A stretch of DNA of 64,000 nt from Myxococcota bacterium (GTDB lineage: Bacteria; Myxococcota_A; UBA796; UBA9615; JAKLKC01). Under the pieces are notes generated by a model. The model was not told the origin of the DNA. It was given only the letters and a program-made list of their open reading frames with translations, and did no database searches. Position numbers and translations under genes: made by a program. The stretch lies in contig JAKLKC010000005.1 in the NCBI GenBank assembly GCA_023150875.1, positions 1-64,000 of the forward strand. The letters run 5' to 3'. Shown here piece after piece: positions 19,137 through 32,360 of the stretch. Every line of letters starts with the position of its first letter. Position 1 is the first letter of the stretch.

Positions 19137-20501
19137 TCACTTCGACGCGGAGAAGATGAACGGATAGGTCACCTCGGCGTCCTGCTCGTCCTCGGTCGGG
19201 TTGAACTCCCAACGGCGGATACGGCGGATGATGCACTCCTCCATGTCCTTGTTTCCGGTGGTGTTCTCCTGCACCCTGACCTCCCCCACCTTCCCGGATC
19301 CCCGGATCACCCAGAAGACCACGACCTTGCCCTCCAGGTCGGGGTTCCCCTTGAGCTGCTCGTCGTAGCACGCCTTGATCTGGGGCAGCTTCCGCTGTAC
19401 GACGGCGCGGATGTTCTTGGCGTCGGACGGGGCGCCGAGCACGTCGGCGTCCCCGGCGCTGGCCTTGGAGACGACCTTCTTCTGCTCCTTCGCACCGGCC
19501 CCGACCACGTCGCCGGTGCCGAAGCCGCTCCCCATGCCGCTGCCGTCCGCGGCGCCGTCGTTGGTACCCCGCAGGGCGTCCCCACCGCGGTCCTGTCCCC
19601 GGACCGCCACCGTCACGGCGCCGACGCCCGAGAGCGCCTGGTCGAGGTCCCGGGAGACCCCCGAGGAGTCCGAGAGGAGGTCGGCCACCGCGCTGGCCTG
19701 GCTGCTGTCTCCCCGCGTGCCGATGATGGCCGCGAGCCCCTTGGAGGCCAGGGCGGCGCGCCTCTCCTCCTCCGAGGGGGGCGCGTCCGCGGGGGTCGGC
19801 TTGGGCTCTTCGCCCTTGGCCTCGTCCTTCTTGGGGCCGGGATCCTTCTTGGCGGTCTCCTTGAGTCCGGCGTCGTCCAGCGGAGCGTCGGTCTGCTCGG
19901 GGGGGAGCGTCACCTCGGGGGGGATGACCAGGTGGATGAACCTCTCGGGGATGTCCTCGAGGGAGACCTTGTCGGGCACGGGCTGATTGTGGACCCAGAT
20001 CATCAGCGCGGTGTGGAGCAGCGCCGAGATCAGCACGATCCCGTAGAACGGCATGTCCGACGGGTCGATGGCGAACCGCCGGAGCTGGTCGATGGTCGCC
20101 CGCGCGGGTTCCGGGGGAGGCGTGACGAACTGGAAGAGGATGGTCGCCGCCCCGACCTGGACCTTCCCGCGGTTCTCGTCGCTCAGGGGGAGCTGGTAGT
20201 GGTCCCCCTTCTTCTGGGCCTTGCCTCCCTCGATCAACGCGTCGAGGGAATGAACCTGGGCGCCGATGGCGATGCGCCCTTCGATCCCGTCGGTGAACGC
20301 CAGGCTGTACTGGCTCCCCTTCGCGACGAACATCGGGAAGCGCTTCGGGAGGCGTGAGGGGGGAAGGGTGAAGGTGTTCTTCTCCCCCTCGCCCACCGTG
20401 ACGGTCTCCCCGGCCTTGATGAGGCGCTCTTCGAGGATCTTCCCGCCCTGGATGATCCCGATGCGCAGAATCTTGTGCTGCTCCTGTCGCTGAGCGCCCA
20501 T
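19137..20501 (-). CDS. AgmX/PglI-type TonB-like protein (GltJ/GltG family), last gene of the Glt-like operon
   Basis: The 454-residue protein has a beta-rich N-terminal domain (1-130, FHA-like: VTVGEGEKNTFTLP), one membrane helix at 150-170 (PFYGIVLISALLHTALMIWV), a long Pro/Lys/Asp-rich periplasmic linker and a C-terminal domain (from about 365) with RKLPQIKACYDEQLKGNPDL and CIIRRIRRWEFNP. That C-terminus matches the AgmX/PglI domain of the Myxococcus gliding complex, a TonB-like module. In Glt/Agl systems such proteins span the periplasm and transmit force or signals from a TolQ-TolR motor to the outer membrane. Here it follows a TolQ-like and two ExbD-like genes. Two cysteines in the C-terminal domain are typical of the family. 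The start ATG at 20501 is unambiguous. Confidence 0.85.
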   Translation of the reverse strand: MGAQRQEQHKILRIGIIQGGKILEERLIKAGETVTVGEGEKNTFTLPPSRLPKRFPMFVAKGSQYSLAFTDGIEGRIAIGAQVHSLDALIEGGKAQKKGDHYQLPLSDENRGKVQVGAATILFQFVTPPPEPARATIDQLRRFAIDPSDMPFYGIVLISALLHTALMIWVHNQPVPDKVSLEDIPERFIHLVIPPEVTLPPEQTDAPLDDAGLKETAKKDPGPKKDEAKGEEPKPTPADAPPSEEERRAALASKGLAAIIGTRGDSSQASAVADLLSDSSGVSRDLDQALSGVGAVTVAVRGQDRGGDALRGTNDGAADGSGMGSGFGTGDVVGAGAKEQKKVVSKASAGDADVLGAPSDAKNIRAVVQRKLPQIKACYDEQLKGNPDLEGKVVVFWVIRGSGKVGEVRVQENTTGNKDMEECIIRRIRRWEFNPTEDEQDAEVTYPFIFSASK

Positions 20502-20625
20502 CGAGTATCCCTATCGACGGGAGACCCTGCGGCCTCCCCTCCGTTCGCCATTCCTGGGGCTTCCCTCCCGGTGCGAAGCCCCCCCCCGGCAGGTCCCCGG
20601 GGCGCGCCAGATTCTCTATCGGTCG

Positions 20626-21039
20626 CTAGCCCGGTTTCTTGCCCCCGACCAGCTCGAACCGTCCGACCCCCGCCGATCGCGCCCCCGCGAGCACGAGCCG
20701 GACGTCGGACCACCGCGTGTCCTTGCCGACGACGACCCGGAGGGAGGTGATGGGGCGCGGACCCACGCCGAGGGCGGTCGGGACGACTTCGAGCGGGATC
20801 GTCTTTCCTTGCCAGGAGATCCCGTCAGAGGTGATCTCCATCGACGAGACGGTCTCCGCAGGAAGGCGCAAATCGGGCGCCACGGCCACCGCCCAGGCGC
20901 CTCCCGGCAGTCCAAGCCCCGGCCACGACGCCGCGATCAGCAAGGGAGCCGACAGGGACGCCAGCACCGTCCCGGCGCGTCCCGCGCCGGCTCTGCGGAT
21001 CTTCCTCGATTCCACTCCCGTCCGCGTCTCCTCGTCCAT
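20626..21039 (-). CDS. ExbD/TolR-like protein, second copy (divergent)
   Basis: The 137-residue protein has a charged N-terminus, a hydrophobic segment at about 24-50 and a periplasmic domain ending in SLRVVVGKDTRWSDVRLVLA and AGVGRFELVGG. That pattern (strand, Asp, helix, Gly-Val strand) is how ExbD/TolR domains end. I infer ExbD/TolR homology from this pattern and from the adjacent TolQ-like gene. The aspartate that carries protons in ExbD/TolR membrane helices is absent: the hydrophobic stretch has no acidic residue. The ATG at 21039 overlaps the previous stop by one base (TAATG). If the hydrophobic segment is cleaved, the protein would be periplasmic. Confidence 0.6.
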   Translation of the reverse strand: MDEETRTGVESRKIRRAGAGRAGTVLASLSAPLLIAASWPGLGLPGGAWAVAVAPDLRLPAETVSSMEITSDGISWQGKTIPLEVVPTALGVGPRPITSLRVVVGKDTRWSDVRLVLAGARSAGVGRFELVGGKKPG

Positions 21040-21551
21040 TATAGCCCCCCCGGGCCGTCCGGGACAGTTCGAGGCGACACGCGCCGCGCCGTCGACGCGA
21101 CGAGGGCCTCGCCTTCGAACGTCCAGGCCAGCATCCCCGCGCCTCCTCGCGGTTCCACCGCCCTCTCGATCGCGTCCAGCGCGAGGACCACCTCGGGCGC
21201 CGCTGCGCCGCCCTCGGGCAGGACGTGAAACTCGATGGCTTCCGGACGCTTGGACCACCGCCTCACCCAGGTCGACAACTCGCCGGTGGGGTAGCCGGCC
21301 GCCGGATCCCGCCACAGGCTTCGCCGTTCGACGGCGTCGATTCCTGCGTGAATGGTGCTCCTCATTTCGACCTCGTACCCATCGTCGGATATCCGGAGCG
21401 TCAGGAACGCCGGCTCGGGTGGCGCGCCTCCGCCCCCTCCGAAGGAGACGTGGGCCCGGGCGGCGGACGCCAGCAGGAGTCCCAAGGCCAGCAGGACCGC
21501 CGCTGGGGCCACCCCTCCTGCGTAGCGGGCGGGGGACCACCACTGCCTCAC
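21039..21551 (-). CDS. ExbD/TolR-like protein, first copy (divergent)
   Basis: The 170-residue protein has one hydrophobic segment (about 13-32, VAPAAVLLALGLLLASAARA) that could be an anchor or cleavable signal. A periplasmic domain follows with FLTLRISDDGYEVE, TWVRRWSKRPEAIEFHVLPEG and VVLALDAIERAV. The order of elements (dG strand, helix, strand of the v.l..d type, helix) resembles ExbD/TolR, but similarity is weak and the family assignment is inference supported by position after a TolQ-like gene. No acidic residue lies in the hydrophobic segment. The GTG at 21551 overlaps the TolQ-like stop as GTGA, indicating coupled translation. In Myxococcus one TolQ (AglR) likewise works with two TolR proteins (AglQ, AglS). 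Confidence 0.6.
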   Translation of the reverse strand: MRQWWSPARYAGGVAPAAVLLALGLLLASAARAHVSFGGGGGAPPEPAFLTLRISDDGYEVEMRSTIHAGIDAVERRSLWRDPAAGYPTGELSTWVRRWSKRPEAIEFHVLPEGGAAAPEVVLALDAIERAVEPRGGAGMLAWTFEGEALVASTARRVSPRTVPDGPGGL

Positions 21552-22213
21552 GGGGGCCCTCCCGGGCCCGGCGGGGGGGGGCCCGCGGTGCGGCTGGGGC
21601 GGGAGGATGCCAGTTCGGCGACCACCGCGACGCCGCGACCGAGGTCGCCGAGGATCCGGTCCGCCCGCCCCGCGAGCAGTCCGTGGACCACCACCAGCGC
21701 CGCGGCGAGGCCGATCCCCGCCCCCGCCGTGGCGAGCGCGTCCGCGACAGCGGCGGAGAGGGCGTCGCGTCGGACGCCCGCCGATGGGCCGGCGGAGTCC
21801 CGGAAGGCCCGTGCCAGCCCCTCGATGACTCCGAGGACGCCCAGGAGGATGGCGACGTCGGCGGCGACGGCGAGCCCGCCCACCCGCCGCGTCAGCTCCG
21901 GGGCCGCGTCCGCCGCCGCCGCGCGGGCGGCGAGGGACGCCGTCTCCGGGCCGTCCTCCATCCGTTGGAGCCCCGCGGCCACGACCCGCGGCAGGTGAGA
22001 GGGAAGGCTGGCCTGGCACACGCGCATCGCGCGGTCGGTGCGTCCTTCGCCAACGAGGCGTCGAACCTCGGCGAGAAAGGTCTCGGTCCGGACCGGCGCG
22101 CGCCGCCCGAGGAACCAGGCCCGCTCCACCGCGATCCCGGCGGCCACGAGGGCCACCGCCAGGAGAAGGCGAGCGACGGCGCTGGTGGAGAGGGCGTGGA
22201 TGATCCCGCTCAT
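21548..22213 (-). CDS. MotA/TolQ/ExbB family protein (AglR-like)
   Basis: The 221-residue inner-membrane protein has three predicted helices at about 10-30, 113-135 and 157-182, the TolQ/ExbB topology. LLGVLGVIEGL (123-133) corresponds to the family's LLG-x-x-G-T-V-x-G-M motif but has Val at position 129 where the channel threonine usually sits; DALATAGAGIGLAAAL (158 onwards) corresponds to the third-helix E-A-L-x-A-T motif and keeps the threonine. It should pair with the two ExbD-like proteins encoded downstream to form a force-generating complex, as AglRQS does in Myxococcus. Whether it still conducts protons is doubtful given these substitutions. The ATG at 22213 lies 13 bases after the stop of the small secreted protein gene. 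Confidence 0.78.
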   Translation of the reverse strand: MSGIIHALSTSAVARLLLAVALVAAGIAVERAWFLGRRAPVRTETFLAEVRRLVGEGRTDRAMRVCQASLPSHLPRVVAAGLQRMEDGPETASLAARAAAADAAPELTRRVGGLAVAADVAILLGVLGVIEGLARAFRDSAGPSAGVRRDALSAAVADALATAGAGIGLAAALVVVHGLLAGRADRILGDLGRGVAVVAELASSRPSRTAGPPPPGPGGPP

Positions 22214-22226
22214 CGCCCCCGAGGCC

Positions 22227-22610
22227 CTAGAACGGCTCGACCTCGACGGAGCCCACGAGGTCGGGGATGAACGTGGTGTGGAGGGAAGGGCCGATCCCTT
22301 CCGAGAGCTCCTGCCGGTAGATCACGTAGGAGACCTCCGGCTTCTGGACGTCTCCGCGGATGACCTCTCCTTCGAAGGTGAAGGCGTCGCGCCGCCCCTT
22401 CCGGGACGCCTTGCCGGATCCCTTCTGCCCGGCGGGCTCGGCGCTCGCACCCTCGGCGGGCTTCTCCTGGCCCCCCGCGGGATCGTCCTGGGCCGCGGCC
22501 GGAGCGGCCGCGAGGAGCATCCCCATTCCAGTGAGGGCCACCGCGAAGACGCGAGAGCACACGCCGGCCCCCGCCGGGAAGCGGAGACCGAGTAGGGCGA
22601 ACCTGGCCAT
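22227..22610 (-). CDS. small secreted protein of the Glt-like operon
   Basis: The 127-residue product has a long signal peptide ending around AAAPAAAQ (residue 41), a Gly/Lys/Glu-rich linker and a compact C-terminal segment of about 55 residues (FTFEGEVIRGDVQKPEV through SVEVEPF). The C-terminal part, with YVIYRQELSEG, recalls small envelope proteins encoded in Agl/Cgl gliding loci, possibly CglF-like, but I cannot confirm this without a profile search. The ATG at 22610 overlaps the upstream TPR stop (TGATG) and has GGAGGG six bases before it. It sits between the TPR lipoprotein and the TolQ-like gene. Confidence 0.68.
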   Translation of the reverse strand: MARFALLGLRFPAGAGVCSRVFAVALTGMGMLLAAAPAAAQDDPAGGQEKPAEGASAEPAGQKGSGKASRKGRRDAFTFEGEVIRGDVQKPEVSYVIYRQELSEGIGPSLHTTFIPDLVGSVEVEPF

Positions 22611-23923
22611 CACTTTCCCTCCCCCGCGTCGCCGGTGGTCGTCCCCGCGCCGCCTTCGGGACCGTCGGCGGGCGACGCCTTGGCGGCATCCCGCTCCTTG
22701 CGGCGGCGCTCCTGCTCCCGCCGCCTCTGCTCCCTCACCTTGGTCTTCTCGACCTCGTCGATGTATTGCCGGACGGGATCCGCGTCCGCGACCGCGCCGC
22801 CCCGGGCCTGGATGTACTGGGCATACGTGGCGAGGGCCTTGTCGTACTCCTTCAGGTAGTCCCCGTACAGGATGCCGAGGTTGAGCAGGGCGTCGGGATG
22901 GGACGGCTCCTTGGCCAGGACCCGCTCGTACTCGGCCTTCGCACCGGCGTAGTCCCCCAGCCCCCGGCGGGCCACCCCCAGGTTCAGGCGCCCCTCCACC
23001 GAGTCGGGATCCCGGGCGACGGCGCGCTCCAGCATCTCCTTGGCGCCCTGGAAGTCGAGGTTCCTGAGCTTGAGATAGCTCATGCTGACCAGGGCCCCGT
23101 TCAGCTCCGGCTCCAGCCGAAGGGACTCCGCAAGCTCCGCCTCGGCGTCGAAGGGGCGGTCCAGGTGGAAGTACACCAACCCCAGGTTGGCGTGGAGCGC
23201 CGCGCTCTCCTTGGCGCCGGGCACGGAGTTGAGGGCCTTCACGTAGACGAACCGGGCGAGCTCGTGCTCACCGGCGTCGAGGTAGGTCAGGCCGAGGGTG
23301 TTGTACGCCTCGATGCTGTTGGCGTTGATCTTCAAGACCTCCCGCGCCTGGGCGATGGCCTCCTGGCGCTGGCCCCGGCGGCGGAGCTGATCGATCAGCC
23401 GGATGCGGAGGGAGGCATCGTCGGGGACATTGCGGATCCCCTGCTCGTAGGTCGTGGTGGCCGCCCCGTCCTGCCCCGACATGCCGAAGGCGTCACCGAG
23501 GCCGATCCAGGCGGCAGCGAGCTTCGGGTTCCCGGCCGTTGCCTTCTGGAAGGCCTCGATCGCCTGGCGCTCGTCGCCCTTGCCGAGGTGGGCCAGGCCG
23601 AGGTTGCACCAGGCCTCGGCGGAGTCCCCCTTCAGGCGCACCGACTCCGAGAGCTTGTCCACCGCCCCCGCGAAGTCCGGGGGACGGGCCGCGAGGGCCT
23701 CGCTCCCGGACTCGAACAACCGGCGGGCCCGTTCCGGGTCAGCCTCGGTGACGGTGTCCGGGGCCGCGGGCTCGGCCGCGGCGGGGTCCACGGCGGCCGG
23801 CGTCTCGGGCGTAGCCTGGGCGGAGCCCACCGGCTCGGCCGCCGGCGCCTGCGTCCTGCAGGCCCCCGCCAGCAGGCCCAGGGCCAGCACGACGGCGACA
23901 CTCGGGAGATCCATCCGCCTCAC
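22610..23923 (-). CDS. TPR lipoprotein, AglT/GltE-like
   Basis: The 437-residue protein has a lipoprotein signal peptide (LALGLLAGAC, lipidated Cys at about residue 22), a Pro/Ala/Glu linker, then about eight tetratricopeptide repeats (for example AWCNLGLAHLGKGDERQAIEAF and LHANLGLVYFHLDRPFDAEAEL) and a highly charged Arg/Glu coiled tail. AglT/GltE of Myxococcus is a TPR lipoprotein in the same gene neighbourhood and organises the outer-membrane side of the gliding complex; the assignment rests on architecture plus context. The GTG at 23923 is chosen over the ATG at 23914 because GGAGGG lies six bases upstream and it overlaps the previous stop as GTGA. Confidence 0.8.
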   Translation of the reverse strand: MRRMDLPSVAVVLALGLLAGACRTQAPAAEPVGSAQATPETPAAVDPAAAEPAAPDTVTEADPERARRLFESGSEALAARPPDFAGAVDKLSESVRLKGDSAEAWCNLGLAHLGKGDERQAIEAFQKATAGNPKLAAAWIGLGDAFGMSGQDGAATTTYEQGIRNVPDDASLRIRLIDQLRRRGQRQEAIAQAREVLKINANSIEAYNTLGLTYLDAGEHELARFVYVKALNSVPGAKESAALHANLGLVYFHLDRPFDAEAELAESLRLEPELNGALVSMSYLKLRNLDFQGAKEMLERAVARDPDSVEGRLNLGVARRGLGDYAGAKAEYERVLAKEPSHPDALLNLGILYGDYLKEYDKALATYAQYIQARGGAVADADPVRQYIDEVEKTKVREQRRREQERRRKERDAAKASPADGPEGGAGTTTGDAGEGK

Positions 23924-26900
23924 GGCTGGCCCTCCTGCTGTCCGGCCCCGCCCGCAAGCTGGGACGCCGCCCCGCCCTTCCCGACGGCGGAGACCTGCTT
24001 CACCGGCGCGGGCAGCTCCCGGGGGTCGCTCTGCTTCATGCGGAGGCCCTCGTTCTTGAACACGGGGTAGCTGTCGGGATTGATGGCGTGGAGCGCCTCG
24101 CGGGCCTTGTCCACCCACGGGGTGTTCCGCTTGCGCCCGGATGCCTCCTTCAGCGTGCGCTCGTACAGCTCGAGGGCCTTGGTCTCCAGCGGCTCCGCCT
24201 GCTTGGCGAGGATGTCCTTGTAGGTCTCGATGTCATCCTCGTTGGTGATGTCCTTGGGGATCGGGGCGGCGAAGATCGAGTCGGCAAACCTCTGGAATGC
24301 GTAGCCCTTGTAATAGAGGGCAGCGGTGGCCCACTCGAAGTCCGGGTACTGGCCGATGAAGGCGTCCAGGCGTCCCTGCATGTCCTGGGTCGCCTTCGCC
24401 TTGTCCTCCAAGACCTTCACGTCCTTGTCGGCCCGGCCGGTGAACTTCATCGCGTCGATCCGGGCGAACTCCTCCTGGATGAAGCCGAAGGCGGCCTTGG
24501 CGGCGGCGTTCACCGCCGCGGGATCGAAGCGACTGGGGTTCGACGCCGACTCCCGGACGTACAGGTCCACGACCTTCTGGCGCTCCAAGCGGGCCTGCCG
24601 GGTGTTGCCGAGCTTCTCGTACAGGTCGGCGACCTTCACCTGCGCGTCCAGGGCCGCGCTGGGGTCGGCGGATCCGTGGCGATTGAGGAAGCGCTGGTAG
24701 ACGCGCAATGCCTCCTTGGGCTGCTTCGCGACCTCCCAGGTCTGCGCGGCGCGGAAGAGGAGGGCCCCGGCGTCGGGCTTGTCGGGATAGTCCCCCTCAT
24801 AGCGCTCGTAGGCACGCGCGGCATCGGCGTAGCGCGCCAGCCCGTTGTAGAGGAACGCGGCGTTGGCGAGGGCGTCTGCCGAGCGGGGATCCGACGGGTG
24901 GGTCTCGAGGAGCTTCTCGTAGTAGTAGATGGCCTGATCCAGGTCCAGGACCCGCTCGTAGTTATCGGCGATCTTGAAGAACGTGGGCGCCGCCTGCGCG
25001 CTGTCGGGGTACTTCTCGAGCATCTCCTCGTAGAGCCGGCGGGACCGTTCGGTCTCCCCGAGCTTCTCGAACCCGTACGCGGCGTTGTAGAGGGCCAGGT
25101 CCCGCTCGGGTGCGTCGGTGAACCGCTGGTAGTAGGAGTAGAACATCTCCGCCGACTCCCGGTACCGGCCGGCGTCCGAGAGCTGCTTCGCCTCCACGAA
25201 GAAGGCGTTCTTCTCCTTGGCCAGGAAGAGTCCGCGCCGCTCGGCCCCCAGGACGCGGTCCGCGCCGAGTTCGCGCTGGGCGAGCTGGCCGCTGACTTCG
25301 CGGACCTTCGCCAGATCCCCTTCATACTGGTAGCTGTCGACGATGAGTCCCGCGGCCAGCAGCGCCTCGTTCCGGCCCGGTACGCCCTCGACGATGCGCC
25401 AGAAGCGGCGGCGGGCCTCGTCGAAGTGGTTGTGGAAGTAGTGCAGCTCCGCCGCGATGAAGAGCATCCCCGTCAGCTCGGGGCGGTCGGGCACCTCGCG
25501 CTCCAGGGCATCCACCGAGGCGACGAAGCGCTTCTCCAAATCCGAGAGGGCGATGGGCTTGAACTCGGTCCGCTGGCCCGCGGCGGGAAGGGGCTGGAGC
25601 GCCGCCGAGCCGGGCGTCAGGCGGTACTCGCCCTCCCGCGCGGTCAACAACGCCTGGTGGGCGGCGGCGATGGAGAAGATCGCGTCCTTCCGGTAGGTCT
25701 GGTCCGGGTACTTGAGCAGGCGCTCGTACTCCTGGATCGCGTCCTCGTGGAAGCCACCCCAGTAGAGGGACTCCGCGAGCTGCCAGCGAAGCTCGTACGC
25801 GTTCTTGGCGTAGGGGAAGCGGTCCAGGTACTCCCGGTACTTCTCGGCCGCCTGGCGGTAGTCCTCGGGCTGGCGCGTCTGCTGGGCCTGGACGTGGAAG
25901 TCCGTCGCCACCGCCTCCAGGGACTCCTCGATGTAGCGGGTCGCCAGGCGGATCGCCTCGCGGTTGCCCTGGTTGGCCTTGTACCACTCCGAGCCGGGCT
26001 TGAAGAGCTCGGTGAGCTGCGCCCGGGCGCGGTTCGAACCCGCCACGTCCGGCGGGACGCGCTTGCGGTAGAGCCCGATGAGGGTGTTCTGGAGCTCGGG
26101 GTTCGCGGGGGCCAGCGGGTAGAGACGCATCAGGCCGGTGTAGGCAGCCACCGCCTCGTCGAAGCGGGCCTGGGTGACCAGGATCTCCGCAACCTGCCGC
26201 AGGACCTCGTACTTGTACTTGCGGTCGCCCCCGCGACGGAAGAACTCGTCCGCGAACGCGATGGTGTCGTCGCCGCCGCCCTGGTCCTCGGCCAGGTCCA
26301 CCAGGCTGATCGCAAGGTAGCGGAGGGACTCGGGCCAGAGGTCGCTCTGCTCGCCCCCGGCCTCCTCCCGCTTCTGCGACAGGTCCAGGAGCTGGACGAA
26401 GCGCGGGATGGCGGCGTCGAGGTCATCGACCTTGTAGTAGGCCCACGCCAGCTTGTAGAGCCCCATCTCGAACTCGTTCGATTCGGGTCCCGCGACGACC
26501 TGGCGGTAATACGGGATGGACTCCTCGAAGCGGTTGTTCTCGAAGAGGATCTCGCCGAGGCGAAGGTAGGCTTGCTGGGTGAAGGCGCTGCCCGGCTTCG
26601 ACTCCACCAGCGCCTTGTAGGTGGCGAAGGCCTGCTCGTCATCCCGCTGCCGGGAGAGCTCGTCGACGTAGCAGTAGCCCAACAGGTAGTGGGCGGAGTC
26701 CCGATGGGCGAAGTCCGGGAACTTCTCGATGAGCCTCTTGAGCAGCCCGATCCCGGCGGCGTAGTTCCGCCGGGGGATCTCCGGCAGGTAGTCGACCTCG
26801 CCGGCATCGAACCGCCGCTCCACCTCGCGGTAGGCGTCGTTCTCGGCACGCCACTCGTCGCCCGCGCGGTCCAGGTACATCTCGGCGAGGCGGAGCATCC

Positions 26901-27255
26901 TCTGGGGCGTCAGCGACCCGTCGGGGTACTTCTCGATGAACGCCTCGTGCGCCCGGATCGCCTCGTCCCGAATGGACCGCTCGCGATCCGACTGGGCGTC
27001 GATGGCTGCGGCGTACTGGGACTGGATCGCCGCCGCCTGCTCGTAGAGGCGGCGCTGCATCAGGCCACGGATGCTCTCCTGGAACTCGGCGCTCCGCTCC
27101 TGATAGCGCTGAGCGGCTTCTTGGACGGCTCGAACCACCTCGGGGGGCGCCTCGCCCGAGCCCCCCTGGGGCTCCTGGGCGCCCGATGCCCCCGCCCAGA
27201 GGGAGGCCAGGATCGCGAGGGGGATCCGCCCGTACCGGGACGCCGTCCTCCTCAT
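23920..27255 (-). CDS. large periplasmic TPR protein, AgmU/GltD-like
   Basis: The 1111-residue protein has a Sec signal peptide (PLAILASLWAGASGA followed by Q) and then at least fifteen tetratricopeptide-like repeats along its whole length, for example LYNAAYGFEKLGETERSRRL and PTFFKIADNYERVLDLDQAI. The C-terminus (TPWVDKAREALHAINPDSYP) resembles that of AgmU/GltD, the TPR protein of the Myxococcus Glt complex found in both cytoplasm and periplasm. It likely forms a periplasmic scaffold with the other TPR proteins of the operon. The ATG at 27255 overlaps the upstream stop as ATGA. The protein ends in a Gly/Gln-rich tail. Confidence 0.82.
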   Translation of the reverse strand: MRRTASRYGRIPLAILASLWAGASGAQEPQGGSGEAPPEVVRAVQEAAQRYQERSAEFQESIRGLMQRRLYEQAAAIQSQYAAAIDAQSDRERSIRDEAIRAHEAFIEKYPDGSLTPQRMLRLAEMYLDRAGDEWRAENDAYREVERRFDAGEVDYLPEIPRRNYAAGIGLLKRLIEKFPDFAHRDSAHYLLGYCYVDELSRQRDDEQAFATYKALVESKPGSAFTQQAYLRLGEILFENNRFEESIPYYRQVVAGPESNEFEMGLYKLAWAYYKVDDLDAAIPRFVQLLDLSQKREEAGGEQSDLWPESLRYLAISLVDLAEDQGGGDDTIAFADEFFRRGGDRKYKYEVLRQVAEILVTQARFDEAVAAYTGLMRLYPLAPANPELQNTLIGLYRKRVPPDVAGSNRARAQLTELFKPGSEWYKANQGNREAIRLATRYIEESLEAVATDFHVQAQQTRQPEDYRQAAEKYREYLDRFPYAKNAYELRWQLAESLYWGGFHEDAIQEYERLLKYPDQTYRKDAIFSIAAAHQALLTAREGEYRLTPGSAALQPLPAAGQRTEFKPIALSDLEKRFVASVDALEREVPDRPELTGMLFIAAELHYFHNHFDEARRRFWRIVEGVPGRNEALLAAGLIVDSYQYEGDLAKVREVSGQLAQRELGADRVLGAERRGLFLAKEKNAFFVEAKQLSDAGRYRESAEMFYSYYQRFTDAPERDLALYNAAYGFEKLGETERSRRLYEEMLEKYPDSAQAAPTFFKIADNYERVLDLDQAIYYYEKLLETHPSDPRSADALANAAFLYNGLARYADAARAYERYEGDYPDKPDAGALLFRAAQTWEVAKQPKEALRVYQRFLNRHGSADPSAALDAQVKVADLYEKLGNTRQARLERQKVVDLYVRESASNPSRFDPAAVNAAAKAAFGFIQEEFARIDAMKFTGRADKDVKVLEDKAKATQDMQGRLDAFIGQYPDFEWATAALYYKGYAFQRFADSIFAAPIPKDITNEDDIETYKDILAKQAEPLETKALELYERTLKEASGRKRNTPWVDKAREALHAINPDSYPVFKNEGLRMKQSDPRELPAPVKQVSAVGKGGAASQLAGGAGQQEGQP

Positions 27256-29681
27256 GGCTCCTCCTGGTCCTGCAGGACCTCGCGGAACGCGCTCTGGAGG
27301 GACCGCAGCTTCCGATTCTGCTCGTCCTGCACGGACCTCTTCTCGGCGGCGATGGCCTCCATCTCGAACCAGTACACGTCGGCGGCGCCGGCGTCGGCCC
27401 GCATCACCAGCGCGTCGATCCGATCCGCGACCCTGTGGAACGAGGAGCCGGCCACGGCGGCCGCCATGTCCATGGACTGGGCGTCGACACGGACCGCCTC
27501 CTCCGCGTAGAGGCCGAGGTTGCGCCGCTCCTCGGCGACGACGCGACGGATCTCCTCGATCTCCCGAGCCTCCATTCGAGCGAGCTCGCTCCGGGTCGTC
27601 GACGCCCCCGCCCTGAGGGCCGTCAGGGCGTCCCGGGCCTCGTCGACGCGCCGGAAGAACTCGGCGGCCGCAGGGTCCCCGACCGAGGATCGCAGGCCGC
27701 GCAGGCGTGACTCCAGGCTCTGGGCCTGCTCCCGCAGGCGCCGGTTCGCCTCCCGCGCCGCTTGGGCCCCCGCCACCTCGTAGCCCGCGGTGAGCTGGGC
27801 AGGGTCGAGGCGGCCGCGCTCCTGGGCGGCTTGTCCTGCGGCCTGGCGCAGATCGGTCCGGAGCGAGGCGATCTGCTCCAGGGTCAGGGCGTCCCCGCCG
27901 GCGGCGCGCGCCGCCAGCTCCAGCCCCGCCAGTCGCGCCAGCAGGTCCTCCGAGAGATCCTCCAGGCGGGAGGCCCGCGTGGCGATGGCCCTGGCCTGGA
28001 GCTGCCAGTCTTCCTTGTGGTCGGCGACGTCCTGGTCCATCTGGGCCGCTTGGGCGGTGCCCCGGGCCAGCTCCGCCCGGGCGCTGGCGAGGTCCCCCGC
28101 GGCCACCCCACGGGACCCGAGGTACTCCGCCTCCGTCTGGACGAGGCGGCTGTCGAGCTGCAGCGCGATGGCCTCGATGGCGTCGACCTCCCGGCGGCTG
28201 ACCCGATACCCGGTCAGGAGGCTCTCCCCCTGTGTGGATCCGAGGCTCTCCTCGATGGCCGCCAGGATCTCCTGACCCTCGGCGATGTCGGCCTCCTGCT
28301 CCCGGAGGTCCGACGTCGCGTCGACGGCGCGGGCGAGGCGCGCGTCCTCCCGTGCCACGCGCGAAGCGTACTCGGGCAGCTCTCCCTCACCGCCCGCACG
28401 CCCCGCCCGGGGCCTCAACGCCTGCTCCACCAGCGCGTTGAAGAGGGCCATGGGATCCGAGCGCCCCGCCGCGAGGCGGTCGAGGCGGTCCTTCACCTCC
28501 TGGTAGTCATCGGCGACCTTCCGGTAGGAGGCCCCCGCCTCGTCGTAGCGCTGGGCCTGCACCTGGAGGTCCGCGAGCAGCATCCGGACCTCGGGCTCGC
28601 GCAGGTGGCCGGCGAACGCGGCCAGGAAGCTCCGGGCCGCCGAGGCAGCCTGGGAGATGTCCCCCTGGCGCACCCACGCCCAGCACATCTCGTAGAGCGC
28701 GTCGGCGTGGGCATCGGAGTCGTGTCCGACGCGCTGGTAGGCCGCCATGGCCTCGGGGTACTCGCCGAGCTCGAAGCGAAGGCGGCCCAGGGCGAGCGCC
28801 GCCAGGTCCTGCACCCTCCGGTGATCGTCGGTCGAGGCGGGGAGCGCCAGCACCTCCTCGAACATCGGCAGCGCCTCGCGGTAGTACGCCTCCGCCCCCT
28901 TGCCGTCGCCCATGCCGCCGCGGATCTGCCCGTCCCGCACCTTCAGCGTCCCGGCGAAGTACCGGGCCATGGGCGTCAGGGCCGATCCCCGGGGGAAGTC
29001 CGCGAACTGCCCGCGGGCGAGCTCGTACTCGCCGGCCTGGTACAGCGCGCGGCCCATGGCGTACCGGACCCGCATCGCCGCCGGCGTCGACTGGTCCTTC
29101 ACGTTCCCGCGGTGCGCCTCGTAGAGGCTGCGGAACCCCGCGAGATCCCCCACGAGGCCGTGGACCTCGATGAGCTTGAGGAGCGAGTCGTCGTAGAACG
29201 GGTGGGAGGGACCGGCCGCGACCACGCGATCGAAGAAGGTCCGTGCCGCGTGGTAGTTGCGTGCCTGGTAGAGGCACTCCGCCAGGTACCACTGCGCCTC
29301 CGGCTCCTCGGGGCGGCCTCTGAGGTCCTGGTGCTCCAGCAGGGAGTAGAAGAGCAGCGCCGCTCGGTCGTACTCGCCGGTGAGGTAGGCGTACACGGCG
29401 TCATTGAAGCGAGCGGAGATGGCCGCGGGAGAGCGGCCGAGGGGACCATCGCCCACGTCCCGGCGGAGCGCTTCAAAGCGTCCTTTGAGGGTCGCCAGTT
29501 CGGCGAGTGCGGCGTCGAGCTGCTCGGCGGGGCCGCCCTGGACGGCGCCGGCCCGGGAGCGCCCGCGGCGAGCCTCGGCCGCCACCGCCCCTTCGGTCCC
29601 GCCGAGGAGGGCCGCTCCCAGGAGAGCCGCCGCCACCAGGCGCAGCCAACGGTTCGCGGGGTGAATGGCCACGGTCCTCAC
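27252..29681 (-). CDS. secreted TPR and coiled-coil protein of the Glt-like operon
   Basis: The 809-residue protein has a signal peptide (WLRLVAAALLGAALLGG...AVAA), TPR-like repeats over residues 60-400 (YLTGEYDRAALLFYSLLEHQ, YLAECLYQARNYHAARTFFD) and a long charged helical region from about 430 to the end, probably coiled coil (for example LREQAQSLESRLRGLRSS). I do not recognise a specific named homologue; Glt loci encode additional TPR proteins here. The GTG at 29681 has GGGAG five bases upstream; a second GTG lies at 29672. It overlaps the AgmU-like gene by four bases. The coiled part suggests a rod spanning the periplasm. Confidence 0.75.
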   Translation of the reverse strand: MRTVAIHPANRWLRLVAAALLGAALLGGTEGAVAAEARRGRSRAGAVQGGPAEQLDAALAELATLKGRFEALRRDVGDGPLGRSPAAISARFNDAVYAYLTGEYDRAALLFYSLLEHQDLRGRPEEPEAQWYLAECLYQARNYHAARTFFDRVVAAGPSHPFYDDSLLKLIEVHGLVGDLAGFRSLYEAHRGNVKDQSTPAAMRVRYAMGRALYQAGEYELARGQFADFPRGSALTPMARYFAGTLKVRDGQIRGGMGDGKGAEAYYREALPMFEEVLALPASTDDHRRVQDLAALALGRLRFELGEYPEAMAAYQRVGHDSDAHADALYEMCWAWVRQGDISQAASAARSFLAAFAGHLREPEVRMLLADLQVQAQRYDEAGASYRKVADDYQEVKDRLDRLAAGRSDPMALFNALVEQALRPRAGRAGGEGELPEYASRVAREDARLARAVDATSDLREQEADIAEGQEILAAIEESLGSTQGESLLTGYRVSRREVDAIEAIALQLDSRLVQTEAEYLGSRGVAAGDLASARAELARGTAQAAQMDQDVADHKEDWQLQARAIATRASRLEDLSEDLLARLAGLELAARAAGGDALTLEQIASLRTDLRQAAGQAAQERGRLDPAQLTAGYEVAGAQAAREANRRLREQAQSLESRLRGLRSSVGDPAAAEFFRRVDEARDALTALRAGASTTRSELARMEAREIEEIRRVVAEERRNLGLYAEEAVRVDAQSMDMAAAVAGSSFHRVADRIDALVMRADAGAADVYWFEMEAIAAEKRSVQDEQNRKLRSLQSAFREVLQDQEEP

Positions 29682-29833
29682 CAGGGCTCCCCGCCAGAGG
29701 CTGCCGGGTCCCGGATGGCGCCCATCCCGCTCCGCTCCGGGACCCTCCGGCGGCGGTCTCCGCGGGGCCCTCCTCCCGCCGCTCGTCGGGCGCCTGGGGC
29801 TGGCGACGCGCTTCGCATGGGGCTCCCGATCCG

Positions 29834-30538
29834 TCACTTCGCCGCGCGCGGGGCGCCGGCCCCACCTGCGGCCGCCGTCTTCTCCGTCGCCAGGTCGAAC
29901 CGGATCTCCGGCCCCTCCTCGAAGCCCGCCAGCGGACCGCCCTTCTTGAGCACGACGATCCGCACGCTGCTGGACTTCCCGTCCTCGGCGACGAAGGAGT
30001 AGCTGTTCTGCCCCTTGAAGGAGTAGTCCTTCAGGTAGGGGAACGCGCCGGACCCGTTGCCCCGCACGACCATGTTCACGGTGATCGTGTGGTTGCCCGG
30101 CGGGATGTTCCCCTCGAAGATCTTGATCTCCTTCTTCTTGCTGAACTCCCCCGACGGGTCGCTCTGTTCGAACACGTTGGTCCCGTCGAAGAAGCAGGTG
30201 ACCGACTCCAGCACGAAGGCGGGGCCGAGGTCGTTGACGTGGGTCAGGATGGCCCTCGCCCCGGCGGTGGCGCCCTGGATGACCTTCTCCTCCAGGAGGA
30301 GGAGGCGCGCCTTGGAGCGGAAGACCTTCTCCTTCAGCGCGTTGACGTTGGCCTCGACCGCCTTCAGATCCCGGGCGATGGACTCGTCCGTCGCCCCCGA
30401 CTGCGGCTCCGCGGGGGCCGCCGGGGCCGCGGCGGACGATGCCGGCGCGCTCCCTGCGTCCTCCTCCGCCACCCCCGCGCGCGGCACGACCCACACGAGC
30501 AGCAGCGCCGCGATCGACGACAGCGCGTACCTCATCAT
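29834..30538 (-). CDS. GltF-like periplasmic protein, first gene of the Glt-like operon
   Basis: The 234-residue product has a signal peptide ending near RAGVAE, an Ala/Pro linker, a helical segment (KAVEANVNALKEKVFRSKAR) and a beta domain with IKIFEGNIPPGNHTITVNMV and YSFKGQNSYSFVAEDGK. Proteins with this exact layout sit beside AglT/AgmU genes in myxobacteria. Databases often label them dihydrolipoamide acetyltransferase; nothing here supports that enzyme, as no lipoyl or catalytic domain is present. The corresponding Myxococcus protein is the periplasmic GltF, which I infer rather than prove. GGAAG lies six bases before the ATG at 30538, and a consensus promoter lies 171 bases upstream. 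Confidence 0.75.
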   Translation of the reverse strand: MMRYALSSIAALLLVWVVPRAGVAEEDAGSAPASSAAAPAAPAEPQSGATDESIARDLKAVEANVNALKEKVFRSKARLLLLEEKVIQGATAGARAILTHVNDLGPAFVLESVTCFFDGTNVFEQSDPSGEFSKKKEIKIFEGNIPPGNHTITVNMVVRGNGSGAFPYLKDYSFKGQNSYSFVAEDGKSSSVRIVVLKKGGPLAGFEEGPEIRFDLATEKTAAAGGAGAPRAAK

Positions 30539-30708: not shown

Positions 30709-30738
30709 ACCATACCGGCGGCCCGGGCGCAGTGTCAA
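30709..30738 (-). promoter_or_regulatory. sigma70-type promoter of the Glt-like operon
   Basis: TTGACA (30738-30733) and TATGGT (30714-30709) on the minus strand are separated by 18 bases. The predicted transcript would have a leader of about 165 bases before the GltF-like ATG at 30538 and run through eight overlapping or closely spaced genes to 19137. Confidence 0.62.
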
Positions 30739-30788: not shown

Positions 30789-32360
30789 TCAAGGCGCGTC
30801 CCCCCCGCCCGCCGTGACGACGCCGGGCGCGGGCGCCGGAGCCAGGGCGACCGCCAGGGCCCCGCCGATCCGCTCGAAGAGGTCACGCGCCTCCCAGAGG
30901 GGGGCGCGCACCCCGTTGGCCATGTAGGCGAACGCCAGCCGGCGCCCTCCGGGTACCTCCTGCACGCCGGCGAGGGACGCGACCCCGTTGACGGTGCCGG
31001 TCTTTCCCCGAATTCGGCCCTCCAGGAGCTCGCCACCCATTCGCGAGTGCAATGTACCGTCCACGCCGGAGATGGCCAGGCTGGACAGGAACTCGGGAGC
31101 CGTCCGGAAGCGGCCCGCGGCCCACCGGATCACCCGGCAGAGCTGGGCCGCCGAGATGCGGTTCTGGCGAGAAAGGCCCGAGCCATTGGTCACGCGGACG
31201 TCCTCCCAGGCGACTCCCGCCGCCTCGAGGACCCGGCGGCTCATCGCCAACCCCTTTTCGGTCGTTCCCGGCGCGCCCTGAAGCTGGACGCCCATGGCCT
31301 TCACGAGGTGCTCGGCGATGAAGTTGTTGCTGAACTTGTCCATGTCCGCCACCAGCACCGACAACGGCGGCGACCAGGCGACGTGCACCGGCACCGCGTC
31401 GTCCGGGGCACGCCCCCTCTTCACCCGGCCCTCGACGCGGCCTCCGAGCTGGCGGAAGAACTCCACGAACAGCGCCCCGAAGAACTCGGTCGGATCCACG
31501 ACGGGCCGGTAGAAGACCTTCGGAGGCGCACCCGCCGGCATGGAGCCCTTGACCACCAGCTCCACGCCGCCCGCCACGGGGCGCCGGACGATTTCGATGG
31601 TCCGGGTGGTCCGCGGCCTGCCGGTGATGGCCTGGTTGAGAATCCGGGCGTACCGGGTCGGGGTCTCCAGGGCGACGTGGGCGAGTTCCCCCGGGCCTCC
31701 CCCCGGCGCCACCACCACCCCGATGGCGTTGAAGTTCGCGGACAGGGCGGAGATCGGGGCGTTGTAGGCAGACTCGCTGGAGTCGCCGTCGTCCAGCTCC
31801 CAGCCGGCGATCTCTCGGACGTCGTCGAAGGCGGAGTCGTCGAGCACCAGATTCCCCGCGACCTGCTCGACGCCCCGGCTGCGCACGTCCACCGCCGCCT
31901 TCCACAGCCGCTCGTAGACCATCTCCGGGTCTCCGCTGCCCCGGACGTACAGGTCCCCCTTCAACACTCCGTCCGCGACCTCGGCGTCGGGGCGCCGGAG
32001 GAACTCGGTCTTGAACCGGAACGCCGGCCCGAGGGCCTCCAGGGCGGCCGCCGCCGTCACCAGCTTCAGGCAGCTCGCCGGGTTCATCGAGCGGTCGGGG
32101 TCCAGGGCGTAGAGGACTTCGCCGGTGTCGAGGTCGGCCACCATCATGCCGAGGTCGGAGCGGCGGACCTTCGACTCGGCGATCAGGGGCTCGATGACCG
32201 GGGCGAGGGCCCCCGTCGCCAGAGCGTCCGCCGCCCGCGCGTCGGGGACGGGACCGGAGGGCCGGGGGAATATGAGGGTGAGGACCATGGCGGACGCAAG
32301 GGCGATGGCGGGGACCGGAAGGGGGGCCGCGGGACTCTTCTGGGTGGTGCCGGTGTTCAC
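30789..32360 (-). CDS. dacB: D-alanyl-D-alanine carboxypeptidase/endopeptidase (PBP4, S13 family)
   Basis: The 523-residue enzyme trims or cleaves peptidoglycan stem peptides in the periplasm. The serine-peptidase triad of motifs is present: SxxK as NPASCLKLVT, SxN as KFSNNFIAEH, and KTG as RGKTGTVNG. The large insertion between SxxK and SxN typical of PBP4 is there. The GTG at 32360 is preceded by AGGGAAG and gives a signal sequence with IALASAMVLTLIF; starting at 32477 would add 39 Pro/Arg-rich residues. It is divergent from the peptide transporter genes, with 152 bases between, so peptide recycling by that transporter is a reasonable but unproven link. Confidence 0.93.
   Translation of the reverse strand: MNTGTTQKSPAAPLPVPAIALASAMVLTLIFPRPSGPVPDARAADALATGALAPVIEPLIAESKVRRSDLGMMVADLDTGEVLYALDPDRSMNPASCLKLVTAAAALEALGPAFRFKTEFLRRPDAEVADGVLKGDLYVRGSGDPEMVYERLWKAAVDVRSRGVEQVAGNLVLDDSAFDDVREIAGWELDDGDSSESAYNAPISALSANFNAIGVVVAPGGGPGELAHVALETPTRYARILNQAITGRPRTTRTIEIVRRPVAGGVELVVKGSMPAGAPPKVFYRPVVDPTEFFGALFVEFFRQLGGRVEGRVKRGRAPDDAVPVHVAWSPPLSVLVADMDKFSNNFIAEHLVKAMGVQLQGAPGTTEKGLAMSRRVLEAAGVAWEDVRVTNGSGLSRQNRISAAQLCRVIRWAAGRFRTAPEFLSSLAISGVDGTLHSRMGGELLEGRIRGKTGTVNGVASLAGVQEVPGGRRLAFAYMANGVRAPLWEARDLFERIGGALAVALAPAPAPGVVTAGGGDAP

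Follow-up and report, generated by a model that had tools for sequence, protein, structure and literature searches.

Nine genes on the minus strand of the window (the whole stretch of 64,000 nucleotides analysed here), spanning positions 19137-30538, encode a Glt-type envelope scaffold in which the genes at the motor position, P6-P8, have lost the whole proton path while the scaffold evolved normally. Fast evolution is confined to the motor genes, and intact motor triads are encoded elsewhere in the same genome. We consider it rather likely, if well short of certain, that the Glt-core scaffold specified by the operon is conserved and that its motor no longer conducts protons; the machine may be static or may be driven in trans by an intact triad.

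Clusters in which GltC, GltD, GltE and GltG are encoded together with AglR, AglQ and AglS were described earlier as a 'core complex' of gamma-proteobacteria, Geobacter and Fibrobacter, which was proposed to be ancestral and whose function was given as unknown (Luciano et al. 2011, PMC3169522). Single units that combine motor genes with Glt genes are therefore known already, and the window operon, which holds GltC, GltD, GltE and GltG homologues together, is a core complex of this type with GltF and does not represent a gliding operon freshly assembled from Glt and Agl genes. With the published complex it shares the component set and the single-cluster arrangement, adds GltF, P1, P10 and an outer-membrane barrel, and differs in its motor, which is devoid of proton-path residues in the window and carries Asn or Ser in the ExbD1 of relatives. 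An earlier note on this DNA had contrasted the joining of motor and Glt genes with their separate clusters in Myxococcus; the joining is not new, given the 2011 precedent and a gene order that is general in the class and recurs beyond it.

Operon layout and scaffold genes

All nine genes run in one direction behind one consensus promoter-like site (Table 1), as the earlier note had it; sites of this kind number 2 in 13 kb, with 0.3 expected. Its count of eight genes was one short, and its statement that most genes overlap by one to four bases holds for four junctions (P2/P3, P4/P5, P6/P7 and P7/P8, 1-4 bases) and fails for four others, which are gaps of 152 (P1/P2), 5 (P3/P4), 13 (P5/P6) and 124 bases (P8/P9). 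The unit also continues beyond 19137, to P10 and the outer-membrane barrel P11; both stand at matching places in relatives, P11 in most of their loci (tblastn down to 5e-55), so the unit as first drawn was too short. P10 and P11 bear no specific family names and are kept downstream of GltG across the class, and a second promoter-like site (19015-18987) lies ahead of P10. At the other end, the S13 carboxypeptidase gene upstream of the operon probably belongs to a separate transcript. In the window, as in at least 18 loci of relatives, it is the operon's neighbour; beside the operons of the order relatives (L047-L049) it was not found.

Table 1. Positions (window coordinates) and supporting matches of the operon genes and flanking features.
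Feature	Positions	Strand	Description and evidence
S13 D-Ala-D-Ala carboxypeptidase	30789..32360	-	PF02113 7e-101; same-direction upstream neighbour
Promoter-like site	30709..30738	-	TTGACA-18-TATGGT; precedes P1
P1	29834..30538	-	secreted, conserved helix (LKEKVFRSKARLLLLEEKV) and beta-sandwich; first gene of operon
P2	27252..29681	-	GltC-like TPR/coiled-coil, GTG start; NCBIfam GltC 7e-27; conserved in relatives
P3	23920..27255	-	GltD-like TPR protein, 1111 aa; TPR/YbgF-type repeats; conserved in relatives
P4	22610..23914	-	GltE-like TPR lipoprotein, lipobox LLAGAC; NCBIfam GltE 4e-35 (under cut-off); conserved
P5	22227..22610	-	small secreted GltF(CglF)-like; NCBIfam CglF 6e-5
P6	21548..22213	-	diverged TolQ/AglR-like; PF01618 7e-11; operon-TolQ HMM 1.5e-39
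P7	21039..21551	-	ExbD1 position, very diverged, GTG start; N-terminal signal-peptide-like helix without Asn/Asp
P8	20626..21039	-	ExbD2 position, very diverged; Ala replaces membrane Asp
P9	19137..20501	-	GltG-like inner-membrane protein, TonB-like/AgmX-PglI C-terminal domain; NCBIfam GltG 4e-51
P10	18342..18956 (start approximate)	-	small secreted protein after GltG; tblastn in most relatives' loci
P11	16646..18016 (start approximate)	-	outer-membrane beta-barrel after P10; PF13505 2e-7

Three TPR proteins (P2, P3 and the lipoprotein P4), a small secreted protein (P5) and a TonB-like protein of AgmX/PglI type (P9) had been correctly recognised from the outset, and P2 and P4 match GltC and GltE. 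The GltC, GltE and GltG matches of P2, P4 and P9 all fall under the NCBIfam equivalog cut-offs (P2 scores 94 bits, the GltC cut-off being 450); P9 also matches the myxo_SS_tail model of NCBIfam over its tail (1e-30), and of the 93 genomes in a sample of the phylum, 88 encode relatives of P9. P3 is called GltD on its TPR content, its position and its similarity (26% identity, 3e-72) to the GltD-like protein of a second cluster in the genome, described below. P5 matches CglF, a synonym of GltF (PMC4488436), and its C-terminal motif is kept in relatives. The name GltF-like had been given instead to the first gene, P1, and is rejected there, P1 having no match in Pfam or NCBIfam and the GltF relative being P5. 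Orthologues of P1 are found in nearly all relatives' operons (32-58% identity), and its predicted fold is a long helix and a beta-sandwich (AF2, pLDDT 80), which in a fold search against the PDB gave generic beta-sandwich matches only, none of them significant or specific.

Residue loss and rapid change in the motor genes

Rotary 5:2 motors (MotAB, ExbBD, TolQR, AglRQS) are thought to turn through protonation of axle Asp residues, one being carried by each of two subunits. With TolQ-TolR and ExbB-ExbD the window set shares a PF01618 protein, P6, and two proteins in ExbD positions, P7 and P8; unlike them, it has no such Asp, no Thr in TM2 and TM3 and no PF02472 match. P6 bears out its first description as a TolQ/ExbB-like protein. 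In a tree it falls within the clade of operon TolQs (support 94/40) on a long branch, and it is 24-34% identical to the TolQs of the relatives compared; a sequence search of the PDB with P6 returned no match. Its TM2 Thr has become Val and its TM3 Thr has become Ala, at sites where both Thr are present in 57 of 57 other aligned TolQs, paralogues included.

The two small proteins are harder to place. Neither P7 nor P8 matches an ExbD or TolR model of Pfam or NCBIfam, PF02472 among them, the outcome that the earlier note had itself named as refuting its reading, and a genome-wide search located eight ExbDs elsewhere and none at the window operon. Intact ExbDs hidden by a frameshift were sought by a six-frame HMM scan of 20401-22400 and rejected, no ExbD motif being recovered. 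Position between TolQ and GltG, the same as in every full relative, together with a weak and partner-specific similarity, is the ground on which we assign P7 and P8 as putative diverged forms of ExbD1 and ExbD2, an identification that we regard as moderately supported. P7 beats 3998 of 4000 shuffles on the ExbD1 HMM (E 0.19) with no score on that of ExbD2, and P8 beats 4000 of 4000 on the ExbD2 HMM (domain E 0.008) and not on that of ExbD1. Two ExbD-like proteins may be retained on position and on weak similarity to each one's own partner (2/4000 and 0/4000 shuffles), though not on any Pfam or NCBIfam match. P7 is gapped or hydrophobic at the membrane-Asp column, its ExbD1 motif being gone. 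The AF2 model of P8 contains a C-terminal beta-alpha-beta unit (pLDDT 86-88 for blocks 101-130; the mean for the whole model is 58) and no confident helix at the N-terminus; a fold search with it was not significant, with ExbD 8vgc at rank 9 (E 0.31), and the model is not independent because its alignment included true ExbDs. Searches for P8 relatives elsewhere in the class gave chance-level matches only. The membrane helices of the TolQ and ExbD proteins of the window are nearly purely hydrophobic.

The acceleration of the motor genes is seen when the identity between the window and its order relatives (f2) is set against that between f2 and other families, which is 26% vs 65% for TolQ, 34 vs 49 for ExbD1 and 28 vs 58 for ExbD2. 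The corresponding values are 52 vs 38 for P1, 36 vs 29 for GltC, 39 vs 32 for GltD, 41 vs 34 for GltE, 40 vs 41 for GltF, 44 vs 37 for GltG and 36 vs 30 for P10. The terminal branch of P6 measures 3.42 substitutions/site vs a median of 0.27, and GC at codon position 2 is raised in P6-P8. Among the matches to P6 listed from 377 phylum genomes none exceeds 40% identity, and no nearer relation sharing this motor emerged from these genomes or from a genome contig scan; one genome of the window's family was found.

Relatives' motors and the second cluster

A comparison of the operon across Myxococcota, which the earlier note had proposed, returned the order P1-GltC-GltD-GltE-GltF-TolQ-ExbD1-ExbD2-GltG-P10 again in 40 fetched loci, apart from contig ends and the deviations given below; the relatives with names are uncultured Myxococcota or 'Deltaproteobacteria', Kofleriaceae included. 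In these related loci (within L047-L084), not in the window itself, the 29 complete in-operon triads show a consistent pattern, with the membrane Asp in ExbD2 in 29 of 29 and ExbD1 carrying Asn in 25, Ser in 4 and Asp in 0. The Asp is present in all 31 relatives' ExbD2 proteins that were aligned. The window set occupies the same orthologous position as the relatives' TolQ-ExbD1(N/S)-ExbD2(D) triads and differs from them in lacking all ion-path residues. We found no report of Asn or Ser at the ExbD1 proton site in the open-access literature.

Motors are exchangeable around the scaffold in nature, being deleted, unlinked or replaced in relatives. No motor lies between GltF and GltG in G008 (L070) and G014 (L072), and operon-type triads are located on other contigs in G014 and G045. 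With these cases and the window, the modularity of Glt-type machines becomes testable. In G045 the operon (C94, L063) keeps TolQ alone between GltF and GltG, and the operon-type triad on the other contig (C135) is a full one with Ser in ExbD1 and Asp in ExbD2. In G013 (C64, 15.7-18.3 kb; L077, L170) the stretch from GltF to GltG contains a D/D-type TolQ-ExbD-ExbD set in opposite orientation, which apparently replaces the usual in-operon motor.

The window genome (G000) contains two intact D/D triads, on C22 and C104, and a second Glt cluster at 21.9-34.1 kb of C102 (21872-34098; L089). The genes of this cluster encode two GltA/B-type barrels of the OMP_myx_plus family, GltC, GltD, GltE, GltF, GltG (with FHA) and CglE, and none of them is a motor gene. 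Its GltC, GltG and CglF scores are 283, 380 and 63 bits vs 94, 174 and 23 for the window genes. The C102 cluster, which fits the Myxococcus models far better, is probably the true Glt/Nfs counterpart of this genome, and the window operon is thus a paralogous core machine. Compared with Glt/Nfs and AglRQS of Myxococcus xanthus, where the motor is unlinked, the window locus shares paralogous scaffold proteins and is missing the outer-membrane proteins GltA/B/H and also GltI/J/K, barrel P11 scoring as unrelated; no match in the genome reaches the full GltJ model. The proposal of an ancestral or alternative trans-envelope machine had the kind of structure right, its parts being Glt/Agl-related, but this machine is not the Glt/Nfs counterpart. 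The likeness to AglRQS that the note drew fails on the missing proton-path residues and on the absence of an ExbD profile match for the two small proteins.

Possible roles of the scaffold and its motor genes

As we picture it, the core would span the envelope from the inner-membrane GltG-like TonB protein, through the periplasmic GltC/D/E/F-like proteins, P1 and P10, to the outer-membrane barrel. In relatives, a TolQ-ExbD1-ExbD2 triad rotating on the PMF would exert a pull on GltG and the chain of periplasmic proteins, or move them, as the analogy with AglR-GltG in Myxococcus suggests (PMC3169522, PMC3858216). In the window lineage the triad is still encoded in place with its proton-path residues lost (the two TolQ Thr, the ExbD2 Asp, replaced by Ala, and the ExbD1 motif), and with these residues gone it has most likely ceased to deliver force. 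Proton conductance is lost in AglQ D28N, and so are motility and sporulation (PMC3858216); from this analogy we infer a loss of proton conduction in the window triad. The scaffold may then be driven in trans by the D/D triad of C22 or C104, just as the AglRQS motor serves two paralogous complexes, Glt and Nfs (PMC3858216), or it may be a static link between the membranes, in which P6-P8 would be retained for assembly or anchoring or as a membrane platform. These two roles are favoured by the intact scaffold, the D/D triads elsewhere and the exchangeability of motors.

Drift alone, with P6-P8 idle and on their way to the loss already seen in motor-less relatives, is the unlikely but most serious competitor: motor-less versions of the operon exist, and both the elevated second-position GC of these genes and a branch of 3.4 substitutions/site are what decay would leave. 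The three frames nevertheless run without a stop for 528 codons, their start and stop codons overlapping at the junctions. The joint chance of such openness under shuffling is ~4e-4 when the three fractions are multiplied, or 3e-3 if codon-position composition is preserved, a mild argument against plain decay; P6 retains family-level similarity and P8 the ExbD C-terminal pattern. A further reading, in line with the earlier note, is a gliding machine, ancestral or alternative, made up of Glt proteins and a working AglRQS-type motor. The note's word 'complete', for an operon with one TolQ-like and two ExbD-like genes, is right in name only. The component list, the gene order and the core complex precedent all speak for such a machine; we hold it to be improbable, the Asp and both Thr being lost, both small proteins failing the ExbD profile and the gliding-specific GltA/B/H set lying in the C102 cluster rather than here.

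Retention of P6-P8 as open frames in operon order would also suit a motor whose ions take another route or whose coupling differs, for instance through polar residues elsewhere in the helices, and GldLM is a 5:2 motor without conclusive sequence homology to others (review, PMC9389320). Nearly purely hydrophobic membrane helices and the lack of a confident helix at the P8 N-terminus make this quite improbable. An assembly or sequencing artefact, leaving a chimeric or erroneous motor region, might be suspected of a MAG in 180 contigs whose family has no second genome, but it is very improbable for three genes affected jointly and in frame, with normal flanks, on a 178.9-kb contig and with no ExbD motif in any of six frames.

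Within the preferred reading of a scaffold with a non-conducting motor, a more specific version can be offered tentatively, namely that the axle of the lineage is an obligate pair of Asp with Asn or Ser, making single-Asp motors, and that the window's became a passive anchor with D/D triads acting in trans. AglQ and AglS are described as carrying the Asp, and whether pairs of their type form unlike dimers has been called unknown (PMC9389320); the motors of this lineage offer a natural test of such dimer formation. On this version the Asn or Ser in the relatives' ExbD1 would be nature's own counterpart of AglQ D28N, the substitution that kills the motor, and Asp plus Asn/Ser axles beside D/D paralogues put the need for both sites to a natural test. 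A search of the same genomes found 21 other triads, all Asp/Asp, and two of these (G013 C75 and G014 C9) group with the operon-type TolQs.
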